Assembly: GCF_040448675.1 (NCBI RefSeq)
Contig: NZ_CP159289.1
Coordinates: 5,439,001 to 5,503,000, forward strand
Direction of reading: 5' to 3'
Length of the DNA stretch: 64,000 nt
DNA from: Dyadobacter sp. 676
Lineage (GTDB): Bacteria; Bacteroidota; Bacteroidia; Cytophagales; Spirosomataceae
Numbering within the stretch: position 1 is the stretch's first letter; every line of letters begins with the position of its first letter. The notes beneath the pieces were generated by a model. That model was not told the DNA's origin and made no database searches. It worked only from the letters and a program-made list of their open reading frames with translations. This document shows, piece by piece, positions 18,360 to 42,670 of the stretch. The position numbers were made by a program, and so were the translations under genes.

Positions 18360-18550
18360 GCTGGAGAATACGGCGCAACAGACCACCCCGTTCCGTGGCA
18401 AATTGACCGATAATCCAAATTCTTGAATTTTGTGTAACTCGCTGACAAAAAAAAGATTTGGTGGTCAATTTTGACCGAAATGATCTGGTCGGCTCAAATT
18501 GAAATGGGCGGGGCCGCCCGGCGGTGGTTACTGGCACCGTAATTTCCAGC
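18360..18550 (-). repeat. Palindrome-ended mobile repeat, copy 1
   Basis: 191-base element bounded by GCTGGAGAATACGGCGC and CACCGTAATTTCCAGC, which are imperfect inverted repeats. Inside are repeated GTGGTCA/TGACCAC motifs and a conserved core around TTTTGTGTAACTCGCTGAC. It matches copies at 19825, 31764 and 42496. This copy has an extra GC-rich block of about 15 bases near 18507-18521 that the others lack. It encodes no protein. The multiple GTGGTCA motifs resemble IS21-family ends, so it may be a MITE mobilised by an IS21-type transposase (inference). Confidence 0.75.
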
Positions 18551-18564
18551 TTATCAACCGTTTG

Positions 18565-19309
18565 TTATTTAAGCATATACTGAATCGAGCCCCCGTCAAC
18601 GGCGATATCGGCACCATTAATGTAGGCAGCGCTATCAGACGCCAGAAACAATACGGTATTGGCAACTTCGTGTGCATTTCCCAGGCGTTGGAGGGCACTT
18701 CTCGACGCCAGATAATCCTGAATTTCCTCGGACGCAACAGTGAGCAGTCCGGGAGTCTGAATCGGGCCCGGGCTGACGACATTGATCCGGATTTTCCGTT
18801 CCGCCAGCTCATTGACGGCAATATCGGCTATTTTGTTCAATGCAGCCTTGGTCGCAGAGTACACGCTGCTTGCGACACCAGCGGCAGCCGCTACACGGGA
18901 TGAAGTGAAGATTACGGAAGCGCCGTCAGCCAAATGCGGTATCAGCTTTTGAAGAGTAAAAAAAGTGACCCTTCACATTGGTATTGAACTGCGCGTCGAA
19001 ATCAGCTTCGGTGACATGCTGAATCGGCGCGTAAATGCCGATGGCCGCATTAAGGTAAAGTACATCGACTTTCTTGCCACTTTCCGCTACCCATTTTTCC
19101 AGGACCGCGATCCCGGTCATATTCGAGGTGTCAGCGGCAAGTGTTTGCAGATTCGCACTGTCGATCTCTTTGGCTGCTTTCTGTAAAGTTTCAGGATTTC
19201 TTCCGGTGATCAGCACATTGGCGCCCTGTTGAATAAATGCTTGGGCAGTAGCAAGTCCAATGCCCTGGCTGCCGCCCGCTATGACTACATTCTTGTTGCT
19301 GAAATTCAT
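18565..19309 (-). CDS. SDR-family oxidoreductase (frameshifted)
   Basis: Short-chain dehydrogenase of about 247 aa in two frames. The first part has the NAD(P) motif AGGSQGIG, a D-T-S segment and LYLNAAIG; the second has SSRVAAAAGV, catalytic YSATKAAL, VVSPGPIQTPG and the C-terminal DGGSIQYML. They join if the T7 run (plus-strand A7, 18957-18963) is one base shorter, giving GHFFTLQKLIPHLADGASV. The substrate is unknown. It is divergent from an HxlR regulator with an inverted-repeat operator between them. Confidence 0.85.
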
Positions 19310-19333
19310 TGCTTTAAAATTTTAAATACACTA

Positions 19334-19409
19334 CAAAATTATATCCTGAACATTTACTTTTGTAACTTGGTTACCAGAAGTAACAGTATATTCCAGGTAA
19401 CCAGGTAAC
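19334..19409. promoter_or_regulatory. Divergent promoters and HxlR-type operator
   Basis: GTAACTTGGTTACC (19362-19375) and GGTAACCAGGTAAC (19396-19409) are near-perfect inverted copies 34 bases apart. TACTTTTG (19355-19362) fits a -7 box for the HxlR gene, and the reverse complement TAATTTTG (19334-19341) fits one for the SDR gene. The second operator half abuts the HxlR ATG at 19412. This arrangement suits co-regulation by the encoded HxlR protein (inference). Confidence 0.65.
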
Positions 19410-19411
19410 TT

Positions 19412-19810
19412 ATGGAGGAGCAAATTTGTCACAAAGCAGATATCAGGGCGATCCACGACGCTATGGATATTTTAAGTGGAAAGTGGAAGATTTCCATTCT
19501 TTCTTCAATGTGTTATTACAGCGAGAGACGGTTTTCAGAAATCCTGAATGACCTTGAAGGCATTTCCAACAAACAGTTGAGTAAGGAGCTCAAAGAGCTT
19601 GAAATGAATAAGCTGGTTAAAAGGACGGTCCTCGACACACAGCCTGTGACGGTTCAGTATAATCTGACTGAATATGGCTGGACACTGCAAGATCTCATTC
19701 ATGATCTTGCCGCATGGGGAACGAAACATCGCCAGGTGATTATGGGCGACCGAAGTGCACTTGATGAGGTATCAAATAGAGGCTCACTCCTTCAAATGCC
19801 ACCCAATTGA
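19412..19810 (+). CDS. HxlR-family winged-helix regulator
   Basis: 132 aa. MDILSGKWKISILSSMCYYSERRFSEILNDLEGISNKQLSKELKELE is the HxlR domain core, followed by the wing (VQYNLTEYGWTLQDLIHDLAAWGTKHR). Cys residues near positions 5 and 35 could act in redox sensing, as in related HypR/QorR proteins, but this is speculation. It is divergent from the SDR gene, which it probably controls. The copy-2 mobile repeat begins 15 bases after the stop. Confidence 0.9.
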   Translation: MEEQICHKADIRAIHDAMDILSGKWKISILSSMCYYSERRFSEILNDLEGISNKQLSKELKELEMNKLVKRTVLDTQPVTVQYNLTEYGWTLQDLIHDLAAWGTKHRQVIMGDRSALDEVSNRGSLLQMPPN

Positions 19811-19824
19811 TCTGGCAATGATTA

Positions 19825-19993
19825 GATTGAAAATACGGTGCCACAGACCACCCCATTCCGTGGCAGACTGACCATCGGTCCAATCTTGATTCATAAATAG
19901 CTGATAAAAAGAGGGGATAGGATGGTCAGTCTGGGCCGAAATGGCGTGGTCAAGCTAAATTGAAATTAGGTGGTCACTTTCGCCGTTAACCAG
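19825..19993 (-). repeat. Palindrome-ended mobile repeat, copy 2
   Basis: Begins GATTGAAAATACGGTGCC and ends near CTTTCGCCGTTAACCAG. Internal TGACCA/TGGTCA repeats and the core region align with the other copies, though it is more diverged than copies 1 and 4. It lies between the HxlR gene and the beta-lactamase-fold gene. The remaining bases to 20157 hold no gene. Confidence 0.7.
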
Positions 19994-20157
19994 TCCTGAA
20001 TTAAAGTCACGTAAGTGTGTTCGCTTATGGGTTAAAGGAGTTCTTGAGATAGTTTTTTATCGGAGCTGTCGGGTCAGCGCAGCAAAAGGAAAAAATCATC
20101 CTAATTGTAACCTTTTTATTCTTCGGCAGTTTCCACGTTAAATCACAAAATCGTGCC

Positions 20158-21597
20158 ATGAAAAACCGCCGGACATTGCTTGTAGCGTTGTTATTATTCA
20201 TTTTGAGCGCGAGGGCCAACCTTTTCGCCAATAAACATTTCGAGGGTGATTCTTCCCAGATTAGCACGAAACTTGATGCGTTTATGACGGAACTGTATGA
20301 ACGCGGACAGTTCACTGGCGCTATTCTCGTGAGCAGACGCGGGAATGTTATCTATCAAAAGGCTTTCGGTATGGCCGACCGCAAGCGGAAAATTCCCTTT
20401 ACACCGGACACCCAGGAATATATCGGCTCGGTCTCAAAGCAAATGACTGCAATGGGTATCATGATCCTTAAAGAGCGAGGTAAATTAAGCTACGGGCAGT
20501 CGGTCAGAGATTATTTTCCGGAGTTGCCTGAATGCATGCAACCTGTCAGGATTCTCGATTTGCTCCGCCACACCGGTGGCTTGGAGGATTTCTATGATTT
20601 TCCGGATATGACCGAGCAAGATGTTTTTAAGATCTTAATGAAGCAGAAGACACTAAAATTCGAGCCGGGCACCCGATTCCAGTACAGCAATGGCGGTTAT
20701 ACCCTCTTAGGGATGATTATCTCGAAAATTGCCGGGCAATCGCTTAATGCTTTTCTGACAGAGAATATCTTTGGTCCCTTGAAGATGGATCACACATCGG
20801 TGAACCAGATAACGGCCAGAAATAACGAGCGGGCGATCGGGTATGACCTTTTTGGCAGCGAGAATAACTACGATAGTTTCATTGGCGGCAGTGCCTCCGT
20901 CATCTCGACGGTACGCGATCTATTCAAATGGGATGAGTCTTTTGCTAAATCCCCGCTGGTGAACGCCCAAACGCTGGCCGAGGCATTCGAACCGTCGATA
21001 GTCCAAAAGGATGATACCTATGGAGAGCGAAGCTACGGTTTCGGCTGGTGGATCGGACGGTATAACGGACAAATGAACCTGTTTCATAACGGATCATTCG
21101 GGGGCTACAAAGCCTACAACGAAATACTGACCGGTGACCGGATCAATATTATCCATCTTAGTAATCTCAGGCATTCATCAATGATGGGCATCAGAGCGGC
21201 AATTGTCGATATTCTCAATGGGAGACCCTACAAACCGGTTCCCAGATCGATTGGCGCCTGGATATACCGGGAAAAGCAAACAGCGGGTGCGGATTCGATG
21301 ATACATCTTTACCGGCAAATCAAAGGCTCGGCCGCCAAAGACGGCTTTGACTTTGGGGAAGGTGAGCTTAATACACTTGGATACCACCTGATGAGGTCCG
21401 ATCGCGTCGATGATGCCATTAAGATCTTTACACTAAATACCGAAGTCTACCCGGAGTCAGCTAACGTATACGACAGCCTGGGAGAAGCTTATCTAAAATC
21501 CGGAAATAAAGAGCTCGGCTTGAAAAATTATCAGAAAGCGCTGGCTATTCACCCAGATGATAAGGGTTTACAACAACGGATAGCGAATATCCGGTGA
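20158..21597 (+). CDS. Serine hydrolase, class C beta-lactamase fold, with C-terminal TPR
   Basis: 479 aa with a signal peptide (residues 1-25). The beta-lactamase domain (PF00144) has SVSK with Ser91/Lys94, YSN near residue 174 and HNGSFGG near 310 replacing KTG. The last ~70 residues (ESANVYDSLGEAYLKSGNKELGLKNYQKALAIHPDD) form one to two TPR units. Members act as D-aminopeptidases, esterases or peptidoglycan-related hydrolases; antibiotic resistance should not be assumed. The exported enzyme probably works in the periplasm. Intact. Confidence 0.9.
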   Translation: MKNRRTLLVALLLFILSARANLFANKHFEGDSSQISTKLDAFMTELYERGQFTGAILVSRRGNVIYQKAFGMADRKRKIPFTPDTQEYIGSVSKQMTAMGIMILKERGKLSYGQSVRDYFPELPECMQPVRILDLLRHTGGLEDFYDFPDMTEQDVFKILMKQKTLKFEPGTRFQYSNGGYTLLGMIISKIAGQSLNAFLTENIFGPLKMDHTSVNQITARNNERAIGYDLFGSENNYDSFIGGSASVISTVRDLFKWDESFAKSPLVNAQTLAEAFEPSIVQKDDTYGERSYGFGWWIGRYNGQMNLFHNGSFGGYKAYNEILTGDRINIIHLSNLRHSSMMGIRAAIVDILNGRPYKPVPRSIGAWIYREKQTAGADSMIHLYRQIKGSAAKDGFDFGEGELNTLGYHLMRSDRVDDAIKIFTLNTEVYPESANVYDSLGEAYLKSGNKELGLKNYQKALAIHPDDKGLQQRIANIR

Positions 21598-21759
21598 TTT
21601 AACATTTGCATTATTGATCATGTGACAGATAGTCGAACCACTGGTGCTCGAATGTATCTACAGCAATTATGGTAGATTTCTGACGACAGGAGTCCACCGC
21701 CGATGGGGAAAGCGAGGCGGATCTTTGCTACGGTCGATTCTGGTCGAGTACACACATCA

Positions 21760-22390
21760 TATGTGCATTGTAAAACGGAATATCAGCTACTATAATCTGG
21801 ACGTGATCATTTCCGTAGGTTATAGAGTGAAGTCACGCCAGGGAACAAAATTCCGGATTTGGGCAACCCAACGTTTAAAAGACTACTTGATTCAAGGCTA
21901 TGCGATGAACGAGCGCCGATTGGCTGAAAAGGAACAGCAGGTACAGATCCTGAAAGATGGTATACGTATTCTGGCACGTTCAATTGAGGACAAAGTGGAT
22001 TCAGAGGATTTGGACTGGCTTGCTACGTTTGTGAAAGGCTTAACATTACTAGATGACTACGACCATGAGCAGCTGGACAGGAAAGGCCGGACCGTGCGCC
22101 CGTCGCGTATCCAGGTTTAACCGAGTATCATGTCGTCGTCGAAGCTATGAAAGCTGACTTTGGTTCGGCTGTCTTTGGAAAGGAAAAGGACGGAAGCTTC
22201 CAGAGTGCTATCGCGCAAATTAGCAAGGGCTTTGGCGATGAGGATTTTATCCATCTGTGGAAGAAAAGGCAGCGACTTTACTCTATCTTATCATCAAGAA
22301 TCATAGTTTTGTAGACGGCAACAAGCGTATCGCCGCGGCATGTTTCCTGCTATTTTTAGAAAGAAATAATTTGTTAATATCTGACAGTGG
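21760..22390 (+). pseudogene. RhuM-Fic fusion protein remnant
   Basis: The RhuM part starts abruptly at VKRNISYYNLDVIISVGYRVKSRQGTKFRIWATQRLKDYL; the first ~90 residues of RhuM proteins are missing. After two frame changes (near 22105, and a T4 run at 22245-22248 that should be T5) it continues LTEYHVVVEAMKADFGSAVFG...PSVEEKAATLLYLIIKN and the Fic motif HSFVDGNKRIAA. The C-terminus is cut after LERNNLL. RhuM-Fic proteins are putative virulence or toxin-like AMPylases. Both ends are lost, so this is a dead gene. Confidence 0.75.
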
Positions 22391-22715
22391 TGCAAGCAGT
22401 ATCTCCGTAAATGGGGACATCGCTATTTTATCTGCGAATTTTCCACCTACCCATTCCTGGAACATCGTTTGGCGGGAAGAGACCTTCTCCGTAATGCTCA
22501 ATCAAGGCAATAACGTGGTCAGGATACAGGGACTACCGGGCGCCAGCATTCGTCAGGATAAGATCTGCGTGACCGGTCCGGGAAGCGGGCAGCCAGCATG
22601 TGCATTCGAAATAGACCCCGCATCCAATGCCCCAATATACGACCGGAGCAAGCCCATGTCTTTCACCGCCAATTGCACCGGGGATTGCGCAGGTGTGACC
22701 TACACCTGGAAAACA
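22391..22715 (+). pseudogene. Carbohydrate-binding-module-like protein fragment
   Basis: In frame with the end of the Fic fragment the sequence becomes SSISVNGDIAILSANF...VMLNQGNNVVRIQGLPG...ICVTGPG. The NxVRIQGL pattern is typical of the last strands of CBM6/malectin-like domains of secreted Bacteroidota enzymes. A short Cys-containing segment (FTANCTGDCAGVTYTWKT) follows before sequence passes into the opposite-strand Fic gene near 22715. It is an internal fragment of a larger secreted protein, without start or stop of its own. Confidence 0.5.
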
Positions 22716-23710
22716 CTCCTTTGTTCTGATGCAAAAAAATAATAAGTTGATTCAGGTCCCTGTCGGGCATATCGATCCTGTTTTGAATCGTTGCTTTTAA
22801 CTCATCATATTTCTGAAGGAAGCTGAGCTCATCAGACATATCCGAAGAAATTGCTTCGCCAATTACCTTTGACAAATAGATACATTGATAAGTTAGATTC
22901 GGATACCGAAAGTATGCTTCTACCTCGGATGTATTGGTGATACTGACTTGTCCGTCTTGGGAGGACTGGTAGCGCACACGTCTCATTAAAGGTCCCGAAA
23001 AAGCCTCGAGCGCAGCATCGTAGTCCTGTATCCGATGGATCATACGGGCAGATACCAGTATGATCAATCCTTTCTGGACAACACCGTCCCTTGCCAGTAT
23101 ATCATGAATCAGAAAGCGGTGGAGCCTGCCGTTTCCATCTTCGAAGGGATGAATAAATACAAACCCAAAAGCGATCATCGCTGCCCTGAGAATCGCATGG
23201 TTCCCTTCCGATTTTCCTTTCGGTTTCCCTCAAACCTGACATCATCGACGTTACCATATCAGGTGGCGGGCAGATATAATGGTAGATCTCGCCGTACTGT
23301 AACGTCGTCTGCCCTATGTAGTTCTGAAAGTCCCTGTACTTTTGGACTGCAAAGCGCTCATCTACTATCGCATTTTGCAAAACTGTCAAATACTCTTCAC
23401 TCAGGGTTTGATCTGCCGGGACTGTTCCTGCCTTGCTTAGCAGGGCGATAAAGCGGTCCATTCTGTCGGATGGCGGACTTTCCCGCTCTATTTAGTAGGA
23501 AGATTTTGTCTCCTTTCGGTATAGGTATTGCGCTGCACGGTGAAATATCTGCGCAGAATACTCTGTTTTCAGCCGTTCGATCTCGGCTGTCAGGTCCAGA
23601 TTCAGCGATTGTTGCAACGCTGCTGCTTTCCTGATTATCGGGCAAAAATCCCGGTCGCCCAACAAATTGTCATTGATCCGCCATACATGCTGTAAAAACA
23701 ATAAATTCAT
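22716..23710 (-). pseudogene. Fic family protein, broken by nonsense, frameshift and 3' truncation
   Basis: Begins MNLLFLQHVWRINDNLLGDRD and carries the Fic catalytic motif HPFEDGNGRLHRFL, so it resembles Fic/DUF4172-type AMP transferases of about 370 aa. The frame meets a TAA at 23489-23491, in SSY-stop-IERE, where the family usually has SSxIEGE; reading continues in the same frame afterwards. A one-base excess in an A4 run near 23211 precedes AILRAAMIAFGFVFIHPFEDG. The 3' end is lost after FLHQNKGVF at the junction with the carbohydrate-binding fragment. Confidence 0.8.
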
Positions 23711-23963
23711 GTTTCAACTTTTTGCGGTAAAATGATTTGACGGGTAGGTAATTATATTAAAACAAATAGCTTTCTACTGTAAAATAGCTATCCAACCCAT
23801 AAGTCAGGGCATCTAAAAAGAGCCCCGCTTACGAGCCCCTCCCAGGTGTTCAGACGGTTGAAAGTGGAGTTCCCGGTGTTTCTTGATGTAAATTAACAAA
23901 TTCCTTCGGGACCGTCCGCGGCTGAAGTTAAATCATTCAGTACACTGTGCGGCGTCGCGTATG

Positions 23964-24384
23964 CTACGGAATACCCACGTCGTTCGTTATATCCTCCTTT
24001 GTCGGCAGGTCGCCCTCATAAGCGTAGGAGGTCGTGTTTGCCAATGTGACGGCGTTTACAGGGCTTGCGTACACTTTTTCGGTTACCTTCCGGCCATTGA
24101 TGTAAGTGTAGGTTTTGTAGGTCGAAAGCAGTTCGGGATCATAGTAATAGGACTGGCGCGTCAGATTTCCTGCTTCATCGTAAGTGAATTCCACATATCC
24201 GCCGGGCTCCGGCGAATCCGATTTAGTGAAATTGAGAATTTTCGTCAACCGGCAGTGGCCCACGTTGTAAACGCTCGTATCGCCTTCATTCGGCCCCGGC
24301 GGCCCCTGGAAAGTTTCGATTCTCTTGTCTTTACAGCCTGCCAGGAAATACACAGTGAGGACCAGGGTAAAAAAGCTTTTTCAT
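23964..24384 (-). CDS. Lipoprotein with YD-repeat-like segment (frameshifted signal peptide)
   Basis: With one base removed from the A6 run at 24369-24374, the start reads MKKLFTLVLTVYFLAGCKDKR, a lipoprotein signal with lipobox LAGC. The mature part (about 118 aa) includes EFTYDEAGNLTRQSYYYDPE and KTYTYINGRKVTEKVY, which resemble single YD/RHS-like beta-hairpin units. It is probably outer-membrane or periplasmic; function unknown. No partner gene is adjacent: the neighbouring plus-strand protease is divergent. The 253 bases between it and the Fic remnant hold no gene. Confidence 0.65.
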
Positions 24385-24535
24385 GGCGAACGATCTGAGT
24401 ACTACCCTCATCAGACAAGAAAATCCTTGAAATAATTGCAAGGTTACTTTTGTTTAATCGCAACGCCGGTGGCCTTAAATTGTGTCTATCTGGATGATTC
24501 CGGCCTACCGGATATTTCCTGAACAATCCACCTGC

Positions 24536-27500
24536 ATGATTATGAATTTGAAATTTACATCCTACGGTCTCCGGCTTCTTGTAACGCTTTCTTTTTTGCT
24601 GCCAAATGGCCTTTGGGCAGGGAAAACCGGTTTTGTGCGGCACCCGGGATGCCGACGCACCGCCGCAAATAAGGCGGATGATGAGCCAGCTGCCGGCCAT
24701 CATGGCCAGGCAAAACACGCGCACTGCCGCAGGAGAAATGAGAATATGCCGCGTTGCGGTAGAGATTGATTCGGATACATATGTGAAATACGAGCGCGAC
24801 ACAGCGGCGATTATCCAGGCGGTGATCCGTAATGTCGAAAAATGTTCAAAATTTTATGAGCGGGAGGCAAGCTTCCGGATGATGGTCACAAGCATCCGGA
24901 TTTTCAAAGACACCGAGCCGAATCCTTACGCCAATGCACACGATGTGCATGCCATGGTGACGATCCTGGCCAACAGGCAGGTGTCGGACCAGAATTTTGA
25001 CAAACGCATTTACCTTTATACGAAGCCGGTCGGTGGCGGTGCTTCGGGTGTGGCGTTCATCGGCGGCGTTTACAATGTGTCGCCGCTCGAAAATGTCGCA
25101 ACACTTATGCACGAGTTTGCCCATAATTTCGGATCGTACCATACCAACAACTGCGGCTGGCCTGGCGGCCCGCTCGATTACTGCGGCGGAGTAGAAGGTG
25201 ACTGCTACACCAAATCTTCGGAAGTAAACACAAAAGGGTCGCTCATGAGCCGGTGCGGCAACAATGGAGCCGGAGAAGCGCTTCATCCGATGGTGCAGGC
25301 GGTGATAAAACAGCACGCCGAGGTCACTTTTGCCAAAATGGAATCCGCGCCGCAGGCGCCTTCACTACCGGGTGACATTACTGCTGTGAAAGGGGATTTT
25401 TACACGTGGCCGGCGTCGACGCTGGCCAGCACTTATGAATTCAGCTATTCGACGGATGCTAATTTCAATGGCGAAACCGTCGAAACCACCACCGTAAATG
25501 GCATTAACTTATTGAAACAAACATTAGGCGCCGACTATTTCGTGCGGGTCAGGGCACGCAATGCATTCGGCACGTCCGATTGGTCCAATACGGTTAAAAT
25601 CCGCATCGACCCTGACCAGCCCGACTTGCCGGTGCTTCTGGGGCCTGCCAAACACGCATTTCTTCCGGCGCAGCTTCCGGTGACATTGTCGTTCTCGAAT
25701 GTTCCGGGTGCAGCCTCGTACCAGGTGCAGGTGTCGCCGCTCTACGATTTCGACTTTGCTTATCCGGCCAGCGAAATCATTTACGGAAATCAATATAACT
25801 ATGTGCCGTATTTCGGCGGGTTCAAATGGCGGGTAAGGGCAATTGTGAATGGAAAAACAGGCAAATGGTCGGAAATCGGATATTTTTCGGCGAATGCGCG
25901 CCTGAACATGGTAGGGCTGTACCTACCTATCCCGGATAACCTGCTCGATGTGCCCCGCACGATCCCGATCGCCTACACGCCATCAACTTACTATTCAAAC
26001 ACGCGCATAACGGTCGCCGACAATCCGGAATTCAATAATCCGCTCTTCCAGCGCAATTACGAGCCATTTTTGGAAATCGCGGACGTGCTGAAAGATCTGC
26101 CTGCCAACACGCAGCTCTACCTCCGTGTGCAGGAACGGCAAACAGACCTTATCAATTATCCCGACCGCGACTTGGTCGACTACACCATTCAGTTTGCCAC
26201 CGGCAGCGCCAACAGCCCTTATGCCCTGACGTTCCTCAGCGAAAAAGACCAGCCCGTTTTTGGAAAACCCAACCCCAAAATCGCCGTTTCCAAAGACCAT
26301 GTATGGCTGGGCGTGATCGATGCCGGTTTCATAAAACTCGACCAGAAAGCGCTTACATTCCAGACATTTAACCGCGCCAACACCGATGGACTTCTCGGTG
26401 TGGGAATGGACAATTCCGTCCGCACGGATAACGAGCGGAACATCTATACCATCAACCCCGCGGACGGTTACCGGTTCCGCAAAGTGAAGCTTGTCAACGA
26501 AAGTCCTTCTGGCGACGCGACCGTGACAACCATTCCATTTGTCGGTTACATCCAGGATTTCAGTCCGCAGCACCAGGTGTTCTGGACGCAGCGGGTTATT
26601 TACAAGGAAACGCCCGACGGTTTTATCGCGCTTCGCCAGGTGTCGGACAGTCAGTTGATCAAGGATATCCGGTTCCGGGACAATAAAGCCTGGATTCTGA
26701 TTCTCAACATGGACCGCGATTACAGTACCGAAATCCTCGTCATGGACCTCAATGACCACGATCTAATCTACACGATCGATTACCAGACCAGCCCTGCCAT
26801 CGAAAATGTGATCGACCAGATCGAGATCCAACCCGACGGAAAAGTATGGCTCCGGCAAACGGATTATTTCACCCAATTCAGCTCCCTGGCCTATTTCGAC
26901 GGCACCTCCTGGTCGCTTTTCGACTCGGGTAATGCACCATTCGGAACCCGCATTTCCAGCGTCAGCATTTCGCCCTCCGGTCAGCCTTACGTCCTGGCTG
27001 TGGGCCGTGAAACGCAGGTGTACAAATTCCATAATGGCCAATGGGAGAAAGCAGGCGATGCATTGCCATACCAGCGGTTTGACGGCGACTTGTGGGTAGA
27101 TACGTATGATAGTTTCTGGATTTCGAACCGCTTCGGGCTGGCACGGCTCGGGTCCGACGCCGCATTTCCTGTTACGCTGGTGCATTTCAGAGCCACTCCG
27201 GAAAACAATACCGTGGTACTCAACTGGAAAGTCGCCGACCAGGTAGACATGGCGCGTTATGAAATCGAGCACAGCAGCGACGCAAAGCGCTTTCACGTCA
27301 TCGGAGAAACGCCGGCGATTGACACGGCTTTGTACAATTTTGTTCACACCAGCCCGGCACCCGGCACCAATTATTACCGGCTCAAAATGATCGAGTCCAA
27401 CACGGATTTCGCCCTCAGCAAAATAGTGAAAGTAAATATGAATGATCTTGCGGAAATTGTCATTTATCCAAATCCGGCTGCCAGCCTGCTCCATGTGAAA

Positions 27501-27698
27501 CCGAGGCCGGAACTCATTGGTCGGTCCGGCCGGATCACGGTGTTCAGCATAGACGGAAGGAGAATTTATGCGAAAAAAATAGACCAATTCCGGGCGCAGG
27601 AGCCGGTCGATGTGTCTACTCTGGCTGCGGGCAACTACCTGATCAAGGTCGAAAATGGCACCTCTGCCAGCAGCAGGGTTATGCAGATCGCCAGATAG
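24536..27698 (+). CDS. Secreted metzincin-type zinc metalloprotease with T9SS sorting domain (frameshift in signal peptide)
   Basis: About 1053 aa. The signal peptide (LRLLVTLSFLLPNG) begins at ATG 24536 or 24542; the frame then shifts near 24610 into AFGQGKPVLCGTRD. The catalytic site HEFAHNFGSYH matches HExxHxxGxxH of metzincins near residue 190, and GSLMSRC supplies the Met-turn, as in reprolysin-like M12B enzymes. Two fibronectin-III-like regions follow (about 270-480), then a beta-propeller-like middle, then PVTLVHFRA...YYRLKMIE and the type A sorting domain (IVIYPNPAASLLHV...LAAGNYLIKVE). Exported by T9SS and probably cell-surface bound. Substrate unknown. Confidence 0.85.
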
Positions 27699-27712
27699 CG
27701 GAATGCATTCCT

Positions 27713-27860
27713 TCATGCGAATGGCCAACACGCAGCATTAGCGCGTAAGCCCAGCTCGGCGGCCATTCGCACCACCGTAGACGTGTTGGGCGCACCGAAT
27801 TTTCCTTTCAGGTTTTGCAGCGTCTTTGAAACAACGTTACTATCCAGGCACTTCGGTTCA
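27713..27860 (-). pseudogene. LuxR-type HTH remnant
   Basis: SNVVSKTLQNLKGKFGAPNTSTVVRMAAELGLR reads like the recognition helices of a NarL/LuxR DNA-binding domain (SKTLQNLKGKFGAPNT...V). No receiver or start codon is attached. It is a short relic downstream of the protease gene. Confidence 0.45.
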
Positions 27861-28389
27861 CCCCGACTCTCCCAGCTTCATCGCCTTGGCGATTACCGCT
27901 TTTTACTAGCTCTCCACTTTTTCCAAACGCCTACGAGCGACTCCAAATTACAGATTAAGGCATATCCGTTTTGCCCGAGGATAAACAATTTACTATAAAA
28001 ACACTCTGCCGCTTGCATTTCAACATAGAAACACGCAGCCAGTTTACTATGAGATTAATTTCTGAAATACACAATAAACCAAAGCGCGCCGCTCAGAAAT
28101 GCCGGGCTGCCTGTGAGTAACTTGTTTTTGGCTGATCTAGGAATCTCTCGTGTGGACCTGTTTTGACTATTGCTACCCAACGCTGGACTATAAGCGGCCA
28201 CAAATGCGCCAGTAAAAGACAACAGTAGACAATCACGATCAGGACCCCCATCGTTTCATCAGTTGGCATGGACGAGCGATTATGGTTTTGCTCAATACAT
28301 CAGAATAAGCATTTTGACCTAAGCTTTGTCACTTAACATACTGTTCTTATCAGAATAGCCAGCGGGGTAAACATTGACACTTACAGAAA
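27861..28389. other. Intergenic stretch, no gene seen
   Basis: About 530 bases between the LuxR relic and the stop of the beta-helix gene. I see no open frame with family features and no repeat shared with the rest of the window. Confidence 0.5.
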
Positions 28390-31231: not shown

Positions 31232-31593
31232 TATATTTTCTATCCTGGTATAAGATCGTAGCAAGACATGCAAGTTCTTTGGATTTTTTTGTTGATCCTT
31301 TTTGGATATTCCTAGCCAGTGTTCCCGGGCAAAGTACGTCGTCTGAAAGTGGCTTGACATCACTGAGCGAGAATGATCAATAAACTTACAGATTTTTTTC
31401 TTTTTCTCAGAGATTTCGAGCTAAAGCAATTCTGTGAGCGGATGCAGGGAGCCGGCTCAGGATTGTGAAATTCGATAACCTCGGCCAGTTACTTGTGCCG
31501 CCGCCAGTAGCCTCCTCAACTTATGTTCTGCCCCAAGTGTTACTTGTAAATTACAAAATCCGGCAATTATAAGGTATGCAAGCTTCCGAGCCT

Positions 31594-31763
31594 CTACAAA
31601 TTCGCTTCCCTGAGAATCATCACTTGTCTTCGCTTCGCCCCCCCAGTGATAGTGCCCAAGCTCCCCTGTCGATTTCATCACACGATGGCATGGTCTTAGC
31701 ATTGCGATACGGTTTTCGCCCATTGCAATTCCTATATCCTGTGCCATATGCCCGGTGCCCCTG
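31594..31763 (-). pseudogene. ogt: O6-methylguanine-DNA methyltransferase C-terminal remnant
   Basis: VAQDIGIAMGENRIAMLRPCHRVMKSTGELGHYHWG contains the PCHRV active site of alkyltransferases. With one base less in the C7 run (31642-31648) it continues AKRRQVMILREANL and stops at 31594, the expected C-terminus. The first ~100 residues are absent: the coding sequence ends at the left boundary of mobile repeat copy 3. The remnant retains the acceptor Cys but not the DNA-binding helix-turn-helix. Confidence 0.75.
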
Positions 31764-31939
31764 GCTGGAAATTACGGCGAAACTGACCATCTGATTTCAA
31801 TTCAGGTTGACCAAGTCATTTCGGCCTCAACAAACCACTATATACATCTCTTATCAGTAGATTACACGAGATTGCGCGAATCTTAACCGGTGGTCAATCT
31901 GCCATGGACTAAGGTGGTCAGTGCCACCGTATTTTCAGC
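31764..31939 (+). repeat. Palindrome-ended mobile repeat, copy 3
   Basis: Starts GCTGGAAATTACGGCG and ends CCACCGTATTTTCAGC, the best-preserved termini of the four copies. Internal TGACCA/TGGTCA repeats are present. The element abuts the truncated methyltransferase gene, consistent with insertion into it followed by loss of the 5' part. The bases to 32066 beyond it contain no gene. Confidence 0.75.
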
Positions 31940-35000: not shown

Positions 35001-35174
35001 TTGTCGGAGGATATTTTGTCATGGTTCAACAAAAAGATCAGCCACGAAACTCCGTTCAACAACTCGGTGTCGGGTGGGTTCGGACTGACGATCGTAAAAG
35101 AAGTTGCTAAGCTGATCAACGTAAACATACAGGCAGGGAACCAGGATGGTGCTGTTTTTCGCCTTGAAATTTAG
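32067..35174 (+). CDS. Two-component sensor histidine kinase with periplasmic beta-propeller (Reg_prop) sensor
   Basis: About 1035 aa. After a signal-like hydrophobic N-terminus come propeller blades: FTAENGLPQNSVKAIAADEMGFAWLATESGLVRFDG, DFFWITTNSGLFRV, and ...DQKAGFLSNEFNGG...GRVSLPSINGLVLFHPE, the classical Reg_prop/Y_Y_Y set of Bacteroidota glycan-sensing kinases. A transmembrane helix lies near residues 760-780. The kinase core has the H box AITHDVRAPLKS (His near 827), N box HNLLDNALKY, DNGPGL and GFGLTIVKE. There is no receiver or AraC domain, so it is not a full hybrid kinase. No ATG fits; TTG at 32067 is the best start. It probably senses an extracellular polymer and may work with the regulator at 41600. 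Confidence 0.85.
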   Translation: MYSVLLSIVRFASKRCASSFACLFFLNLLICPSRSLFAQQIDFYSPNYSFQHFTAENGLPQNSVKAIAADEMGFAWLATESGLVRFDGKDMTVFNKNNLNISANRFFQSQKSIFNGQLYFRNEDNQGILIENGRAEVDTQYVSEWRGMLKRIGLTSRRALQSNDGSGRPLYDYDWQDLIVAGRPGSFFVCDTTSVTCYEGDRLKYRVVYKVRNPLTYFYIDDKLFHWHRENGKITRISHDKTEDVEVVGDILRNEDFRKLKSGFEILWNGSSNHPMLYFGGKLYGLTLTSPNQFTSKYLLEGFDLNKRRVVSSYYDPKNGMIMLGSLTEGLFVFHRKHFSVLQGSEGNAFYEQSFFCGRYIINGSGEAFDVFNGEKRVLPLGKQFYKASAFVAKDGQIWSWKNRFLYLFSHDGKKLIRKWPISGNTITVFQADSGTYWLGNDLGIVRRVTTSESAVKEYDLRDPYACINYIVPAKGPDKAALWIATKNGLYQMRTDGKAAQRIRGTEGINVRSLLVVGTGAAEGRSAELWGTTYENGFFLYRNGQLTWFPPDRRLYLKTAHCIVHDRNDFFWITTNSGLFRVLRKDLLSYANGMQQQIYYEYYDQKAGFLSNEFNGGCQPCALRLPDGRVSLPSINGLVLFHPERTPTNTPDRPLLIDQVEYNGRSVPASDTIILDADFEILSMKVLTPHFGNPENLNMFYQLSSDQQPGSWLRVPPSGVLSFNRLAGNDYKLTIRKLSGFGTGHFTEKTIHIIVPLKWYQTMWFSVLAFLLFLIGVYFYVKWRTMNVKKQNAQLERSVAERTASLEDSQMELSRQLHIQARLMAAITHDVRAPLKSILITAGNIKELNTQRRYDLSSRIGDAIEQTTSQLLIFIENLLQYARTTVYDEKIKIEDFDLGELIESKVKLFENVARLYENRVLNQLPARLIVTSNPQLLSVIIHNLLDNALKYCYRGEIRIYGKMVEERMYIFIADNGPGLSEDILSWFNKKISHETPFNNSVSGGFGLTIVKEVAKLINVNIQAGNQDGAVFRLEI

Positions 35175-35227
35175 GCGCCGCCCATGCCTTACTTAGCATT
35201 GGCTATTTCATAATCCCGGTTCACAAA

Positions 35228-35257
35228 AAAAGCGCCCTCAGTTTTGAAGGCGCTTTT
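35228..35257. terminator. Bidirectional terminator
   Basis: AAAAGCGCC and GGCGCTTTT form a hairpin around CTCAGTTTTGAA, flanked by A and T runs. It lies between the kinase stop (+) and the stop of the convergent giant T9SS gene (-), where a shared terminator is expected. Confidence 0.85.
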
Positions 35258-35277
35258 CGATTCACTTTAAACAGGTA

Positions 35278-38200
35278 TTATCTACGGATAACGAGCTTAT
35301 GCGTACTCCTGGTGCCGTCTATACCTTTCAGGACCAGCAGGTACATCCCCGCCGGAAGATGCTTCACATCGATTGATCCGGACAGAACCTTGTCGGACTG
35401 ATAGACCTTGACACCGCTCGCAGCGACGATCTCAACCTGACTGATTCCCGAAAGATCATTCGCCTTGATGTTCACTTTTTCGGCAGCCGGATTCGGATAA
35501 ATTTCGATAGAAATCTCATCCGCGAAGTTGATGCTCTGGATACGGCTATACGTGAAAGTATCATCAAAATCAATCATTTTGAGGCGATAGAAACTCCGGC
35601 CTCCAAGTGGACGATCATCGGTGAAGCTATATGTGACGAGTACATTGCTTTCGCCTTTTGCCTGGCGTGTACCGATTGCCGTCCATTTCTTACCGTCGGC
35701 ACTGCGCTGCACCTCAAACACCTTGCTATTGGTTTCTTCGGTGGTCTGCCAGTTCAGCGATGCGGTGCTTCCCTCTTTCGAAACTTTAAACGAAACCAGC
35801 GTTACAGGAAGCGGGTTGGTTTTGCTACCGAGGAATCCGAATGTAGAGAAAATCTGTATGCCGTCGAACTGCACGTACGGGATACCGTTTTCCAGGCCGG
35901 TCGAGGACGCCACAAGGCTGTCCTTTCCAACGACATCATCGACAGTCAGGTTATCCAGCACGTCCTGTTTGGAACCGCTCAGCTTGAACCAGGTCTTGTA
36001 TGGGTACGCATCGATGATCGCTTTTTGGGCCGCGGGGTAGAACATTCTCACCTTGACGCCGCCGTTGGTGCTCAGCGTTCCATCCTGTACTATTTGCAGC
36101 ATATAGGGCATTACTTCTGCCGTTTTGGTCGAACCGTCGGTTTCGAGGTGATCGGCATCGCTGCTTGTGCCGGTGTTGTAAATCACCACACTGGCCGGGT
36201 TAAACGTATTTCCGTTCGGATCTACGGCCGCCAGAAGTTTGGAAGGGGCCGCAGGATCGAAGTAATAATACCAGCCATTGATGAACTTGCAATTGTTCGT
36301 TGCCAACTCGGCGCTAACAGTTCCGTCTGCGATCACGCCGGCCAACGGGCTCGATGCGCAGCACGACGCCGGATTGATGGTCCAGTTAAATGTCGTCGGG
36401 TTGCTGGTACAATAGCTGTTCACATTGAGGTCAAAGAAGTAATTGTAGTCGGTTGTCTCACTATAACTAAACATTCCCGATTCGCTGTCATAAGCCAGGT
36501 CGCTCACGCCGCCCGTTACCTGGAAAGCAGGCGTAGTGGTAGCAGGCGAGCTGATGGGGAAATCCGGCGTGGCAAAGGCAAGTGAGTTCGTAAACGTCGC
36601 AGAAGGGTCTGCCACTTCGAGCACCAGCAAATACTCACCCGGCGCAATGTACCAGTTAGGCAATGTCGCGGTAATGGTAGCGCCATCAGCGATGTTGGCC
36701 GTGTTGGTGAATGAGTAAAGCAGGAACCCGTCAGCAGAATACAATCGGATAAAGAAGTCGTCATGAGATGGCGTATTGTCTTCATCGTCTACGTCTTTGA
36801 TTTTGACGGAATTGAGCTTGACAAAGCTATTGACACTCAATTTTACACCGCTGCCAATATCAAATTTACCGCTTTCGGTACCATCGAGTTGCGATGTTCT
36901 GTATCCCTGGTCACCCAATACACTGGCTGTACTGCTGGTGACGTAGCTTTTCCATTGGCCGCTGTGAGCGGTGGTATCGGGAGTTACATTCAATGTCGCA
37001 GTGCCGGTTGTGTTATTCACAGGCGCAACATTGAACACTTTCGATTTGGGGCTGGTGAGCCAGTAGAAACGGCCCATGTTGGCAGGGTTAGCCGTGCTCG
37101 TCAATGTCGAAGACTGCGCCACACCCACACAACTGTTCTTATCCGCAATCGCGCTGGTGTTAACCGGTGTTTCACTTGCTGTCACAGAGGCGTACGCGGT
37201 GTTGGTATTAGGCACCGGCGTGCCGCCGCAAACCATGAATGCACGTACATATTTGGTTCCTGCCGCCGCCATGGTGTAGGTAAAGATGCTGTCGCCCTGG
37301 TTGAAGGTTTCCAAGCCGTTGGTAAATGCCGCGTCGTTGGCTACCTGAAACTGCCATTGGCTGCCCACTGCATAGTCGCCTGTTGCATTCACATAGTAAT
37401 GAGCGATCGCTTTGATTTCGCCTCCGATGCAGGTCGTCGCCGCAGCGGTGTTCGGAGTGGGTGCGCCGGTACCAAAATATTTGACGGAGCTTCCGTTATT
37501 AACCAATTCGATACCGCGGTTCAGGTCCTGACCCCGGAATATGGTGTAGTTGTCCTGTACGGAGTTGTCGTCGAGTGTGGTCGCCAACGGATCAAGCGGC
37601 ACGGGCGGGACCGGGTAGGATTCCAGCTCCACGGTACCAGGGCAGGTACTGGCGACATTGGCACTCCAATCGCCGCTGGTCCAGCTGCATACAGTCCCGT
37701 CGGACGTTTCTGCAATAACAAAATACTCGATGGTATAAACAGGATTGGTCACCGTGGCCGAGCGCAGAATGCTCAGATCGATCGTAAAATCGTAGTCATT
37801 GCCATTGTTGCCGGTCGGGTTAACCCACCGCCAGCCGCTTGGGCCCGAAGCCGAATTCGCGGCCGCATTGGCAGGCATTACATTGGCGTCGACAGCAGCG
37901 TAGGCAGCGTTGTTATATACCCTGCGGTAATACAAACGCGGCGCCTTGGCTCCGGTAGCTATCATTTGGCCATCGGGTGGTGTGATAGTCACTTTCAATG
38001 GTTTGTTACCACCACAAATACTGTCATTGATAGGCTTGTAGTCGAATGCAATAACCCCTGCGATGTACGGTGCTATAATGCCGCTGGTTTCATGAGCACC
38101 TGCCGTCACTTTGCCGGTACCCCTGCCAACCCCGAAATAATCCTGATTCACATTTACCGGAGTGCCGATATATTTAGCATTAAATACAGCGGACGTCGCG

Positions 38201-41192
38201 CCGGATGTTATTTTAAGATTGTCGGGAGCGCTTCCGCTGTTGACAAACGGGGATGGTTTTGGCGTCGTATTATTGACAGGATCCAGTTCTGCGTAACTTT
38301 CCTTGTCGGCCCCTGCCATAAACGTTTTGTAAATACCGCAGGCAATATTGAAATCGGGGTCATTGACCAGATAATTGGCCGCATTGGCGGTTGCACCACC
38401 GAAGGCAAAGCTGTTCCGGATGCCACCTGTGCCTGCGGCATTGTAGACGCTGCCCTGGCCGTAAATGTAGTTGGCCGGAGCTGCATTGACGAAATACACA
38501 TTGCCGCTACTTGTTTTAGCCGTTCCCAACGGTACCTTTTTAGCGGCGGTCACACTGAAATTACGTACGGCCATGTTGGCTGCGGTACCTTTGGCGATCG
38601 CATTTACATGCACGATGTTGTTACGGTAATCCGTCAGATAGGTTTTGGTGTTGTAGTAATAAGAGGCGATGAGGATCCCTGTCACACCAAATGATGTGGC
38701 GGTGCTTGTCAGGGCACCGGCCGAACCGCCGTCCGCGGCTCCCAGTACGATGGTGTTGTGATAAATATTGGAACGGAAGATCGAGCCGGAAATAATAATC
38801 CCATTGATCGCCAACCTGCTGCGCATTGCGGGCGCTTTCAACTCACTGATAAAGTTGTTGTAAATGTTCTGGGTGGTGTTGTAATCTACATACGGACTAA
38901 ATGTAGTGATGCCGACCGGTCCGGTCGCATAGTTGCCATCCGCCTGGTAACCCGTCGATAACGTGCCTGCATCCAGATTGGTGATATTATTACCATAAAT
39001 ATCGAGCTTGTTGTAATATTCGGCGGCAATACCGGCCAGCGGATATTTGTCATAAACATTATCGTAAATTCCGATCAATTTGCTCGAAGCGGCCACCATA
39101 CCCGACAGGTTGCGAATCGTATTTTTGAATATGGAAACGTTGTGCCCGATCGTGTAGCTTCCTTTGGTGTAAATGCCCCTGATCATTGAATAACTATAAG
39201 CATGGTTGGCGGCATTGGCCGTTTGCGACATGTTTTCAATGAGGTTATTCGAAATAATCTTGGTCTGCAAGGCTCCGGTATAATCGGCCACAATGCCACG
39301 GAACTGGGCCTGGTAGCCATAGCCACTCGACGCATACAGGCCGGTACGCACGTTGTCGGTTAATTGGTTATTGTCAATGGTAACAGTGCTCGGACCGGTG
39401 CGTGGTTTTCCCTGCACACGGATCAGGTCGGTGTGGAAAACCGAGTTGCTGTTCGCCGCATTGTAAAGCTCGTTGCCCGAAATGGTATTGCTTTGTACGA
39501 TCGAGCTGATACCACCGCTCTGGGCAAATATCATCGATGCGGAGACAGGGTTTCTGGCGCCGGCAGGCGCAAGGATATCGTTGTTGGTAATGTTGTTGTT
39601 TTTGATTTCCAGCAAATCCCGCGTTACCAGGTTCAGGTAAGAATAGGTGTAAATCAAATGCATGCCGGCGGTCAGTGCGATTGGTGTGTTGGTTGTATTT
39701 CCCAGGACAAAATTCGAGATGTTGTTGCCGTTGATATAAAGATTCTTGCTCGAATGCTTCCAGTTGATGGCGCTCAGCAGACCGCTCCTCACATGGCTGA
39801 GCCTTGAAAGGCCTGTGATGGTATTGCCCGTAATGGACACGTTATTGCCATTCTGGAAACCTTCACGCCGCCATGTATTCAATGTCACTGTCGGGGCGTC
39901 GGCATACCAGTACGAGTTAATTCCAACCACATCCCCGGTCCGACCTTTCAGGTTGGAAATATTGTTGTTATTGATTTCGATGTTCCCGGCAGGTTTGGCG
40001 CGCTCGGTGGCATCGTCGTTGGCAGCAAAAATAATCCCGAAGGCATATTTCAACGAGGCAGTCGTGTTGGTGGTCAGATCTATATTACTGATTGTATTAT
40101 TATTGATCCTGAACAGCCCCGTAGCGGTGCGTGGCAAGGCGAAGCCACCACCCGTGGACATACCAGCCCAGATACCCGCAATGCTTCTGAGGTTGTCACT
40201 GATAGTTCCCCCGGTTGCGCCACTAACGTTGTTGTGCTCGATGGAAAAATCTTTTTGGCCGCCCACCGAAATGCCCGCCACGGCCGCGTGGTAAGTGCCG
40301 CCATACGCAACGCCCGAAGCCGGACCGAAATTGGTAATCGTGTTACCTTCCCCCGCTCGCCCGATGACGAGCCCTGTGCCGGCAAAAGCATTGGCACCGC
40401 TGATAAGATAGCCGTCCGTGACCCTGATACCGAAGAAGCAATTGTCGATGGTGTTACCCACGATCGTAATATTGCTGTGTACATCGGCCGCAGATTTGAT
40501 GCCTTGTGTCGGGTTACTGTACGTCCAGTAATACGAACCGCTGTTGCTCCCCTGATGGGTACTGGTAAAATGGTTCAGGTCGATACCCGCACTCTGGTGA
40601 TTGTAATGGATATAACCGATCATCTGGTGGTAATTGGGCTGGCGGGTCAACTGGATTTCACAGTTTTTGATCGTGACGAATTGGCAGCCATTGTTGCCCA
40701 GCGAGGTACTGTAACGTTCCTTAAACAGTGCGATACCCAGTTCAGCCCGTGCCGCGTTGGTGGTATGGGCTGCGTTTTCGACAATTTTAAGACCGTCGAT
40801 CGTAATGTAATCCTGCCCGGCGATTCCGATAACGAAGTCGAAGTTGCCGATACCGTTACCGGCGGTAAACGTAGGTTTGGCGCCGTTACCGTCCCAGCGG
40901 ATAACAACCGGGTTCGCTGCCGTCCCTCCCCCTGTTAATCAGAAGCCCTGCGGGAACATCGGGGTTTGGCGTAGTGTTGCCATTAGCCACCGTTTCGGTG
41001 TGTCCGCCCAGTACATTGAAGGTCACGCCACCCGAACCTACCCCCTGGGCGTTGAGATCGGCTACGGCTGCGGCAAGGGTCGGATAGTCGCCCCCCTGCT
41101 CCGACGGATTTGCTACCCGTCAACTGTGCATTCGCCCTTACAGCGCCTAGCAAGACCGCGGCAAGGGCTATTCTGGTAAATAGTCGTTTCAT
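35278..41192 (-). CDS. Giant beta-helix/Ig-like T9SS surface protein (two frameshifts near N-terminus)
   Basis: About 1970 aa when reconstructed. Signal peptide RLFTRIALAAVLLGAVRANAQ begins at 41192. The reading then shifts at a C6 run (41092-41097) to DYPTLAAAVADLNAQGV...VTFNVLGGHTETV, and again at a G5 run on the minus strand near 40928-40932 to GGTAANPVVIRWDG. Long PbH1-type repeats (NNNITN, NNTIS, GNTI...) cover the next ~900 residues; Ig/PKD-like domains and a proprotein-convertase P-like region (ADGATITATLPNWYIAPGEY) follow. The end has PVTLVSFKVSKEG...YRLKMIDFDD and a type A sorting domain (IEIYPNPAAEKVNI...LPAGMYLLVLKG). Likely a surface adhesin or glycan-interacting protein. Confidence 0.85.
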
Positions 41193-41599
41193 AAAAGATT
41201 ATTTAATAACATGAAGTAGAGAGGATAGAACTGTCATTGACAAGGTGGAATCATAGGCGTCTGTCGGGGTTAGGCGGTTAATGGAACAATTGATGTGTGT
41301 GCACAGCGTGTGTGGAGATGCGACAGTTCGCGTCTCCTGAACATTCAAGCATAACTGGTGGTTAAAGAAGCCGGCATATGGGGAGGGTTCACATGCCTGC
41401 TGAACTATGCAGCCAAAAGTAGATTCTTAATACAAAGTAGATTGTAGTTTTACGTGGAAATAAATTGATTTTTTTATGACCATCAACTGAAAAAATTCTA
41501 CAATTTGATTAGGCTATTCAGCCACAAAAATCACTAATGTAACTATCGTCAGGAATTAGGATAGCGTTACATTTGGGTTGTCGTTTTTCCTTTTCCTCT
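41193..41599. other. Divergent intergenic region
   Basis: About 400 bases between the start of the giant surface protein (-) and the NarL-type regulator (+). It is AT-rich next to the regulator, where the promoters for both genes must lie. I cannot point to a clean TTTG/TAnnTTTG pair. Confidence 0.4.
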
Positions 41600-42238
41600 A
41601 TGAAAAAAGTACTTATCATCGAAGACCACCCCGTTGTACGGACTGGCACCGAAATGTACCTCCAGACACTGATCCCGGACGTTGATATTCAATCTACATC
41701 CCATTTCGCGCAGGCGCAAACCATGATTGCGTCGCAGACTTTTGAGCTGATTACACTGGATATCAACATCCCGGGCGGCGATAAGCTTGAAATCATCGCC
41801 AGCGTTCGGCAAAAACAACCTCATGCCAAAATCCTGGTTTTTTCGGGGTACGACGAAGAATTGTATGCGGTTAAGTCCATTAAGTTGGGAGCTGACGGAT
41901 TTCTTTCGAAGCATTCGTCAGCCGAGGAATGCAAGAATGCATTTAACACTGTGATAAACGGCGGCAAATACATCAGTTCCAAAGTGCAGCAACTGATGCT
42001 GGACCGGCTGGTCGAGCACAGTAAAGCGGCTCACCATGGGGCGGCCGATTTGACGGCAAAAGAGGTGAAGATTGCAAAAATGCTCGTGGACGGCCACACT
42101 GTCAAGGAAATTGGCGGCGAACTGAATTTAGCCCCCTCGACAGTCAGCACCTACAAAGCAAGGATTTTCGACAAGATGAACGTACGGAACCTGGTAGAAC
42201 TTTTGAAAAAAATGAAGAAGGTCGGCGACCATTTGTAG
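41600..42238 (+). CDS. NarL/FixJ-type response regulator
   Basis: 212 aa. Receiver domain: LIIEDHP acidic residues, phospho-Asp in LITLDINIPGG near residue 53, FSGYDEE, KLGADGFLSKHSS with the conserved Lys. LuxR-type helix-turn-helix: LTAKEVKIAKMLVDGHTVKEIGGELNLAPSTVSTYKARIFDKM. Start taken at the ATG giving MKKVLIIEDH. No kinase gene is adjacent. It sits immediately upstream of, and divergent from, the giant T9SS gene, so it may control it; the propeller kinase at 32 kb is a possible but unproven partner. Confidence 0.9.
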   Translation: MKKVLIIEDHPVVRTGTEMYLQTLIPDVDIQSTSHFAQAQTMIASQTFELITLDINIPGGDKLEIIASVRQKQPHAKILVFSGYDEELYAVKSIKLGADGFLSKHSSAEECKNAFNTVINGGKYISSKVQQLMLDRLVEHSKAAHHGAADLTAKEVKIAKMLVDGHTVKEIGGELNLAPSTVSTYKARIFDKMNVRNLVELLKKMKKVGDHL

Positions 42239-42334
42239 CGACGACAAAACTGCTTATGTGAAGTAAAGTGGTCAGCTCAAGCTGGAGAATCCGGTTAAGT
42301 GTAGTGGCTCTATAGCTCCGCTACATCTCGCAGT

Positions 42335-42495
42335 CAGCAAATTGTAGAACAACCCTGGCTCAACCAGCGATCTGACCGCGGTATCGATCCCCACCACACC
42401 AACCGAATTAAACGATTGGTCGTTCAATTCTACCGATGGCATGATCTATGCATTCGGTACGAACAAAGTGCTGTATCGGTTCGATCCGGTAACCT
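42335..42495 (+). pseudogene. DUF6923-like secreted protein fragment
   Basis: NNPGSTSDLTAVSIPTTPTELNDWSFNSTDGMIYAFGTNKVLYRFDPVT is a typical repeat of DUF6923-type beta-propeller domains of secreted Bacteroidota proteins. It has no start or end, and is cut by mobile repeat copy 4 at 42496. It is a relic of a larger surface protein. Confidence 0.55.
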
Positions 42496-42670
42496 GCTGA
42501 AAATTACGGTGCCAGTGACCACCCCATTTCAATTTGAGCTGACCAGATCATTCGGTCAAGATTGACCACCAAATCTTTCTTTCGTCAGTGAGTTACACAA
42601 AATCGAAGAATGTGGATTACTGGTCAATCTGCCACGGAATGAGGTGGTCTGTTGCACCGTATTCTCCAAT
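42496..42670 (+). repeat. Palindrome-ended mobile repeat, copy 4
   Basis: Starts GCTGAAAATTACGGTGCC and ends GCACCGTATTCTCCA. Its reverse complement aligns with copy 1 almost base for base over the whole length except for the GC-rich block unique to copy 1. It separates a secreted-protein relic from a recombinase relic, both truncated at its edges. Confidence 0.8.

Follow-up and report, generated by a model that had tools for sequence, protein, structure and literature searches.

A 64,000-nucleotide stretch of the Dyadobacter sp. 676 genome (NZ_CP159289.1, positions 5,439,001 to 5,503,000 of the forward strand), referred to here as the window, carries four copies (c1 to c4) of a short non-coding repeat that combines two IS21-type ends and that we call an IS21-type mini-element. 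Copy c1 is flanked on both sides by gene 3′ ends, one of a DUF932 gene and the other of a short-chain dehydrogenase gene, c2 starts 17 bp past the stop codon of an HxlR gene, and c3 cuts an O6-methylguanine methyltransferase gene, whose PF01035 match starts at profile position 32 of 81, the first part of the domain being gone. An initial annotation had placed every copy at the edge of a broken or ended gene, which holds with some qualification; the 'recombinase' that it reported beside c4 gave no Pfam match.

All four copies were confirmed in the host genome, a single contig of 7.28 Mb, and could be aligned over their length; mean column identity was 73% with short flanks included in the alignment. 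They measure ~163-187 bp, with no transposase gene inside, and their tips read TGGARAATACGG...CCGTAATTTCCA, with TGA/TCA in some copies, so that the termini first proposed hold except for an outer 'GC' that belongs to the flank. Similarly, c1 and c4 do match in opposite orientation (83% identity, E 1.3e-52), although not base for base throughout, as c1 carries an extra GC-rich 15 bp (~18509-18523) within its L-type end, as defined below. Because E-values among the copies range from 3e-12 to 1e-52 in a genome of this size, their similarity is not due to chance. Whole-genome searches, which the annotation had proposed, indeed revealed a fifth full copy, c5 (genome positions 692697-692868), 95% identical to c4; a decayed copy is located near 7252200, and at 37992 there is an end fragment.

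IS21-type ends in a genus-wide family

The same genome contains a resident IS21 element of 2.62 kb with istA and istB, present in four near-identical copies, whose IstA of 519 aa has a Mu-type C-terminal domain and an rve match below the Pfam cut-off. Its GACC repeats are positioned at 20 and 44 from the right end and at 20, 44, 67, 91 and 114 from the left end, and those of the mini-element at 20/44 from one end (R-type) and 20/44/67 from the other (L-type). This repeat-for-repeat match bears out the earlier suggestion of IS21-type multi-repeat ends. In local alignments of mini-element and IS21, the two L ends scored 77 (shuffled maximum 30) and the two R ends 53 (shuffled maximum 26), compared with 39 and 40 for the L-R combinations. 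The mini-element is therefore laid out as an IS21 right end with two repeats, a ~50-bp spacer and an IS21 left end with three repeats, with no gene between them. Since each copy of ~173 bp holds both end types, the copies are not merely the ends of full IS21 elements, an outcome that the annotation had allowed for. The likeness extends to the IS21 family at large (IS21, IS5376), which shares the TG...CA tips, repeats in both ends, matching spacing and an unequal number of L and R repeats. The annotation had also looked to an istA/istB element with the same ends, and the resident IS21 does have the same end architecture; the tips of this GACCAC-type clade resemble those of the mini-element without being identical to them, suggesting that the helper may be another member of the clade.

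The family occurs throughout the genus. A scan of a genome collection with the R-end pattern returned 39 stretches, of which 36 were Dyadobacter records, one was Mucilaginibacter and two were Bacteroidetes metagenome-assembled genome records; the matches in these last three were of end type only, lying ~2.5 kb apart in two of them, as in IS21. A family I DNA query gave no match in 51 non-Dyadobacter genomes (of 99 searched), the pattern scans gave 0 matches in viral contigs, and none was found in plasmid records with one subfamily II copy as query. Among the matches listed, a profile of 36 copies matched 32 of 48 Dyadobacter genomes, IS21 ends included, and at least 135 copies covering at least 125 of the 173 positions were present in 26 of the 48. 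Two subfamilies can be told apart by their tips, ATACGGTGC and ATTCGGATGA. The identification as an IS21-like miniature inverted-repeat transposable element (MITE) stands as far as a MITE-like family with IS21-type ends is concerned.

Full copies differ little in length and much in sequence. Of the 116 listed, 54 were exactly 173 bp and 89 were 171-174 bp long, in a search whose profile, being built from copies already found, favours lengths near 173, while the median pairwise identity between copies was 64%. Among copies of exactly 173 bp, spacer identity was 46.5% in register versus 23-31% when shifted by 1-3 bases (810 pairs with at most 72% identity); these spacers are therefore homologous and have diverged by substitution with their overall length unchanged, which points to selection on length. 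In published work on the IS21 family, each end has two repeats and an IstA tetramer sits on a pair of intertwined ends (PMC10122671); this offers a possible reason for this locked length: both ends of so short a DNA may have to fit, or wind, in one IstA complex.

Length and cluster statistics are based on 132 of the 135 listed copies (two in G023 and one in G019 were left out, with no effect on the set of 116). The richest genomes were G031 (28 copies), G030 (19) and G016 (11), with six copies in the host genome. A neighbour within 50 kb was found for 73 of the 132 as compared to 17.7 expected if they were uniformly spread, and near neighbours shared orientation in 35 of 50 cases (p 0.003); with the three omitted matches included, the figures were 75 of 135 (~18 expected) and 35 of 51 (p 0.005). 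For example, all 10 matches listed for G030:C7 are on the '+' strand, and same-direction copies abut each other at L404, where the first is without its last 5 bp, and abut a partial copy at L380 and L401. A group in G031 whose copies are 92-98% identical indicates recent dispersal.

Elsewhere among the Dyadobacter IS21 elements, other clades appear by eye to have repeat cores of their own, namely GAGCCA, GACCCC, GGGCCA, ACGCCA, TTACCA and GTGCCA besides GACCAC (L178-L190, L192, L050), and such clades with distinct cores form a natural series for reading the end specificity of IstA. A broken IS21-like element ~0.8 kb from c5 was considered as the parent of the mini-element and rejected, as its IstA shows 22% identity and it has different ends; it belongs to another clade, spans ~3640-6120 of L051 (genome ~693.6-696.1 kb) and has, by eye, TATACCACT-type ends.

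Flanks, breakpoints and a bracketed segment

For the analysis of flanks, 95 full copies from 22 genomes were drawn from 119 non-overlapping matches by requiring nearly complete ends and a score above 60; the 24 dropped include the copy at 7252191 and c2, which failed the full-length filter. None of the 95 had a flush target duplication of at least 5 bp, and one had a duplication of 4 bp. Full IS21 elements of the same clade had duplications of 5-8 bp in 8 of 20 copies (Fisher p 2e-7), so that the mini-element departs from its full-length relatives in this respect as well as in lacking istA and istB and in being ~173 bp rather than 2.6 kb long. It departs likewise from MITEPsy1, which is reported to duplicate 4 nt (PMC3189936). 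As the recent G031 group is also without duplications, age is not the whole reason for their absence. For want of any such duplication in the 95 copies we use the term IS21-type mini-element and make no claim of plain MITE insertion: the short, gene-less, IS21-ended character of a MITE was borne out, and its insertion marks were not.

Empty sites, which the annotation had hoped to compare for target duplications, were not seen among the matches listed either. We joined the flanks of 24 copies (five from the host genome, 10 of subfamily II, nine of subfamily I) and searched them against the 48 genomes, scoring up to six candidates per genome, and among the matches listed none passed the junction by more than 14 bp, giving an empty site for 0 of the 24. 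A few rows pass it by 4-14 bp, for example four weak ones at G028b and one of 9 bp at G024. For at least 13 of the 24 copies, by reading of the matches listed, a match from another locus or genome stops within about 5 bp of the junction; the left flank of c4 matches several genomes up to the boundary and then stops, and at G028b, G033, G031e and G010 both flanks end in this way in the listed matches, on different contigs or in different genomes. As a control, the same search with 20 IS21 copies listed crossing matches for four (L047, L049, L174, L327), all with duplications, so the search is able to see empty sites. None were listed for the 12 IS21 copies without duplication, which in this search resemble the mini-element, nor for the other four with duplication, three of which matched only their own locus among the matches listed. 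Separately, an interrupted DNA ligase gene beside G028a was considered as a measurable deletion and rejected, because the two flanks match two different reference loci; no size is claimed.

Comparison of the 250-bp flanks of the 95 copies revealed no two copies in different genomes that share both flanks and two such pairs that share one. In the first, G010:C41 and G043:C46 have a collinear block of at least 19 kb with 94.7% identity, which takes in the element and ends within 3 bp of its R-type tip; beyond it lie 3.9 and 7.1 kb of unrelated DNA, after which collinearity returns at 74-79%. In the second, G030:C12 and G047:C15 have 4.3 kb in common at 93.5% (to the end of the G030 contig), starting from the first base of the element, which is the R-type tip, and nothing in common in the 15-20 kb before it. 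Similarly, two copies within G031 (C60 and C12) share the element and ~2.5 kb on its L-type side at 93-96%; directly following the element, one of them has an additional 114 bp. In three of three pairs, then, the shared block is bounded by the R-type tip. Such a boundary is what a one-sided deletion, or movement of the element with neighbouring DNA, would leave, and a crossover within the element could also give one-sided sharing.

The annotation had reasoned that copies at identical syntenic sites in distant relatives would speak against mobility. As just described, among the 95 full copies no pair from different genomes has both flanks in common, and only a shortened form does so in two species (L194 in G028:C123 and L225 in G018:C22): its first 106 bp align to c4, and because it has the same sequence on both sides in the two genomes it was probably inherited.

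We also asked whether sequence outside one copy recurs outside another in the same genome, and among 984 ordered pairs three shared at least 6 bp, as compared to 0.24 expected. The clearest case is G010:C6, where two direct copies at 390 and 2483 differ at two positions in 173 bp, making them the most similar pair of the 95, and enclose 1.9 kb with the same 9-bp CGCTTAATT outside both. The bracketed 1.9 kb holds an HTH_17 gene and a PIN_3 gene, in our reading a toxin-antitoxin-like cargo. Pairs of a 439-bp MITE around integrons in Acinetobacter are reported to bracket cargo with a target repeat outside (PMC3934969), and the G010 composite is likewise formed by two same-direction copies, cargo and an outer target repeat; the Acinetobacter repeat is of 5 bp and its ends match no known insertion sequence (IS), whereas here the repeat is of 9 bp and the ends are of IS21 type.

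Proposed rearrangement-coupled movement and its rivals

With a probability of roughly two-thirds, we consider the family to be a non-autonomous mini-IS21 whose ends are synapsed in trans by IstA/IstB and joined to target DNA, usually with a rearrangement, either a deletion beside the element or an insertion of the element with neighbouring DNA, and whose length is set by the IstA complex. The proteins would come from a GACCAC-type Dyadobacter IS21, would synapse the two ends of the mini-element and join them to a target, and the reaction would usually end in an adjacent deletion or in a cointegrate-type insertion. Insertion of a circle carrying one element, or an adjacent deletion, would place copies between unrelated DNA, build direct arrays and leave duplications only outside pairs; a single copy would then have unrelated DNA on both sides and no target duplication, and where two copies bracket a segment, a duplication would be seen at its outer limits and nowhere else. 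Full IS21 may show clean insertions more often because homologous recombination can plausibly resolve copies of 2.6 kb but not those of 173 bp. A related behaviour has been described for ISPve1, a full-length, autonomous IS21-family element of Paracoccus observed in trap plasmids, for which 16% of selected clones carried deletions and 7% carried simple insertions flanked by 8-bp repeats (PMC3281130); IS21-type transposition with one-sided deletions would be what the two have in common. With no duplication in 95 copies, no empty site for 24 and a length held near 173 bp, such rearrangement-coupled movement fits better than scattered simple insertions.

Several observations weigh against this reading. 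No insertion event has been observed, and no IS21 with the exact tips of the mini-element was present among 22 istA loci (L046; L174-L192, L050; L051; no end was obtained for L175), which sample the istA matches of 20 of the 48 genomes; the true helper is thus only putative. Only one convincing outer duplication, that of G010:C6, was found in 36 same-direction pairs within 60 kb; that at G031:C1 is weak, being of 6 bp between clearly diverged elements, and the other same-direction pairs have none of at least 6 bp. The third case in the pair test lies on two contigs. The lack of duplications is not special to the mini-element, since 12 of the 20 full IS21 copies are also without one. In the joined-flank search L320, an IS21 copy with a duplication, had foreign flank matches with none crossing among those listed, and the contrast in empty sites (4 of 20 IS21 copies versus 0 of 24 mini-elements) is weak on its own (p 0.036). 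Finally, the deletions made by ISPve1 lay beside its 5′ end (PMC3281130), whereas the three breakpoints described here are at the R-type tip.

An ordinary MITE, inserted simply with duplications and with flanks later swapped by homologous recombination between copies, is an unlikely alternative that nevertheless has a precedent in the same genus: an 8-bp CTAATATG is split between the IS21 copies L326 and L324 (G022:C2), the mark of an inversion or exchange between the two, and one-sided flank sharing at the element is also what a crossover within it would be expected to give. Swapping should leave partners that share the duplication, and these are nearly absent in a census that is incomplete: three of the 984 ordered pairs qualify, and each same-end test yielded 0 of 492. 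Moreover, copies of ~173 bp with a median identity of 64% are poor substrates for homologous recombination, and the recent G031 group has no duplications either.

The element could instead be a 173-bp recombination joint, an attC-like or recombinase site at which a recombinase adds or removes DNA segments to give direct-repeat arrays. Clusters in direct orientation such as that of G030:C7, a locked length with a variable spacer, and flanks without an empty site would all suit it. We nonetheless regard this as quite improbable, because the end architecture is that of IS21, the 9-bp duplication outside the composite is a transposase signature, the breakpoints lie at the tip and not inside the element, RNAalifold on 36 copies gave 0 pairs, hence no conserved fold, and the length is near-constant, unlike the foldable and variable-length attC. 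Old, decaying IS21 remnants, now inactive and gathered by chance in gene graveyards, would account for the divergence of many copies and for their position beside truncated open frames; this is very unlikely, given that remnants would vary in length, and that both the G031 group and the G010 pair with its two differences speak of recent dispersal. A terminator-like, structured RNA or DNA regulatory repeat is the least plausible of all: c1 and c2 do lie just past gene ends, but c3 cuts a gene, the 95 full copies do not share both flanks between genomes (the shortened form does), and a structured RNA was rejected on the RNAalifold result.

A bolder and more tentative proposal is possible. The gene-less 173-bp joint of IS21 ends might act like an IS26 without a transposase of its own, helped in trans by IS21 proteins, moving together with adjacent DNA in a unit bounded on one side by its R-type tip, and building same-direction arrays that serve as an exchange platform for Dyadobacter accessory genes, its length reflecting both ends being wound in one IstA complex. 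IS6/IS26 elements are described as forming direct arrays, translocatable units and cointegrate-type products (PMC7986276). The likeness is one of behaviour only, in the direct-orientation arrays and in an element that would move as a unit with neighbouring DNA, as IS26 belongs to another family and has its own transposase, and the mini-element has none and carries IS21-type ends.

In being short and gene-less, with ends like those of an autonomous IS and several copies per genome, the mini-element resembles bacterial MITEs as reviewed (PMC10969869), although the main text of that review names IS21 0 times, and no IS21-derived MITE appeared among the results of searches of an open-licence library. 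New here are the genus-wide spread of the family, its locked length, the fact that signs of simple insertion are consistently missing, and breakpoints at one tip. MITEs tend to be regarded as passive passengers whose insertion duplicates a few bases; if the copies of a family mark breakpoints, a very small non-coding element would itself drive deletion and gene exchange. The same question bears on how IS21 elements, so many of which also lack duplications, reshape genomes, and a natural series of mini-elements, fixed in length and drifting in the spacer, could serve as substrates in work on how IstA grips both ends of one short DNA.

Window coordinates and neighbouring genes

Positions of the mini-element features in the window, numbered from its first letter. 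Repeat positions are counted from the respective tip.
Feature	Position	Strand	Length	Description	Basis
Mini-element copy c1	18362..18548	+	187 bp		Alignment, tips, whole-genome search
c1 R-type end	18362..18416	+		Tip TGGAGAATACGG and two GACC-type repeats at ~20 and ~44, positions taken from measurement on c4 and IS21	Four-copy alignment
c1 L-type end	18461..18548	-		Three repeats counted from the right tip, split by the extra 15 bp	Alignment, comparison with c4
Mini-element copy c2	19828..~19993	+		L (3′) tip decayed, CGTTAACCA; right boundary +/- few bp	
Truncated O6-methylguanine methyltransferase gene	31460..31765	-		Emerges from c3	Open frame; Pfam PF01035
Mini-element copy c3	31766..31937	-	172 bp	Cuts the methyltransferase gene on its left	
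Mini-element copy c4	42498..42668	-	171 bp	Nearest relative is the fifth copy, c5	
c4 L-type end	42498..42570	+		Repeats at 20, 44, 67	Best match IS21 L end, score 77, z 21
c4 R-type end	42614..42668	-		Repeats at 20, 44	Best match IS21 R end, score 53, z 16

Between c1 and c2 lie the short-chain dehydrogenase gene (18565-19309, - strand), split over two overlapping frames, and the adjoining HxlR regulator gene (19412-19810, + strand). This dehydrogenase-HxlR pair is bracketed by the two copies in direct orientation and is also carried by several relatives; no shared sequence was seen in the outer flanks of c1 and c2, which may together represent an old composite. In G042 the gene pair is present twice, ~15 kb apart. 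Other mobile-element genes are also found near the window copies. A DDE transposase gene (PF13612, PF01609; 30217-30945, - strand) is positioned ~0.8 kb from c3, and a gene for a group II intron reverse transcriptase/maturase (PF00078, PF08388; 44515-46209, + strand) lies ~2 kb from c4.

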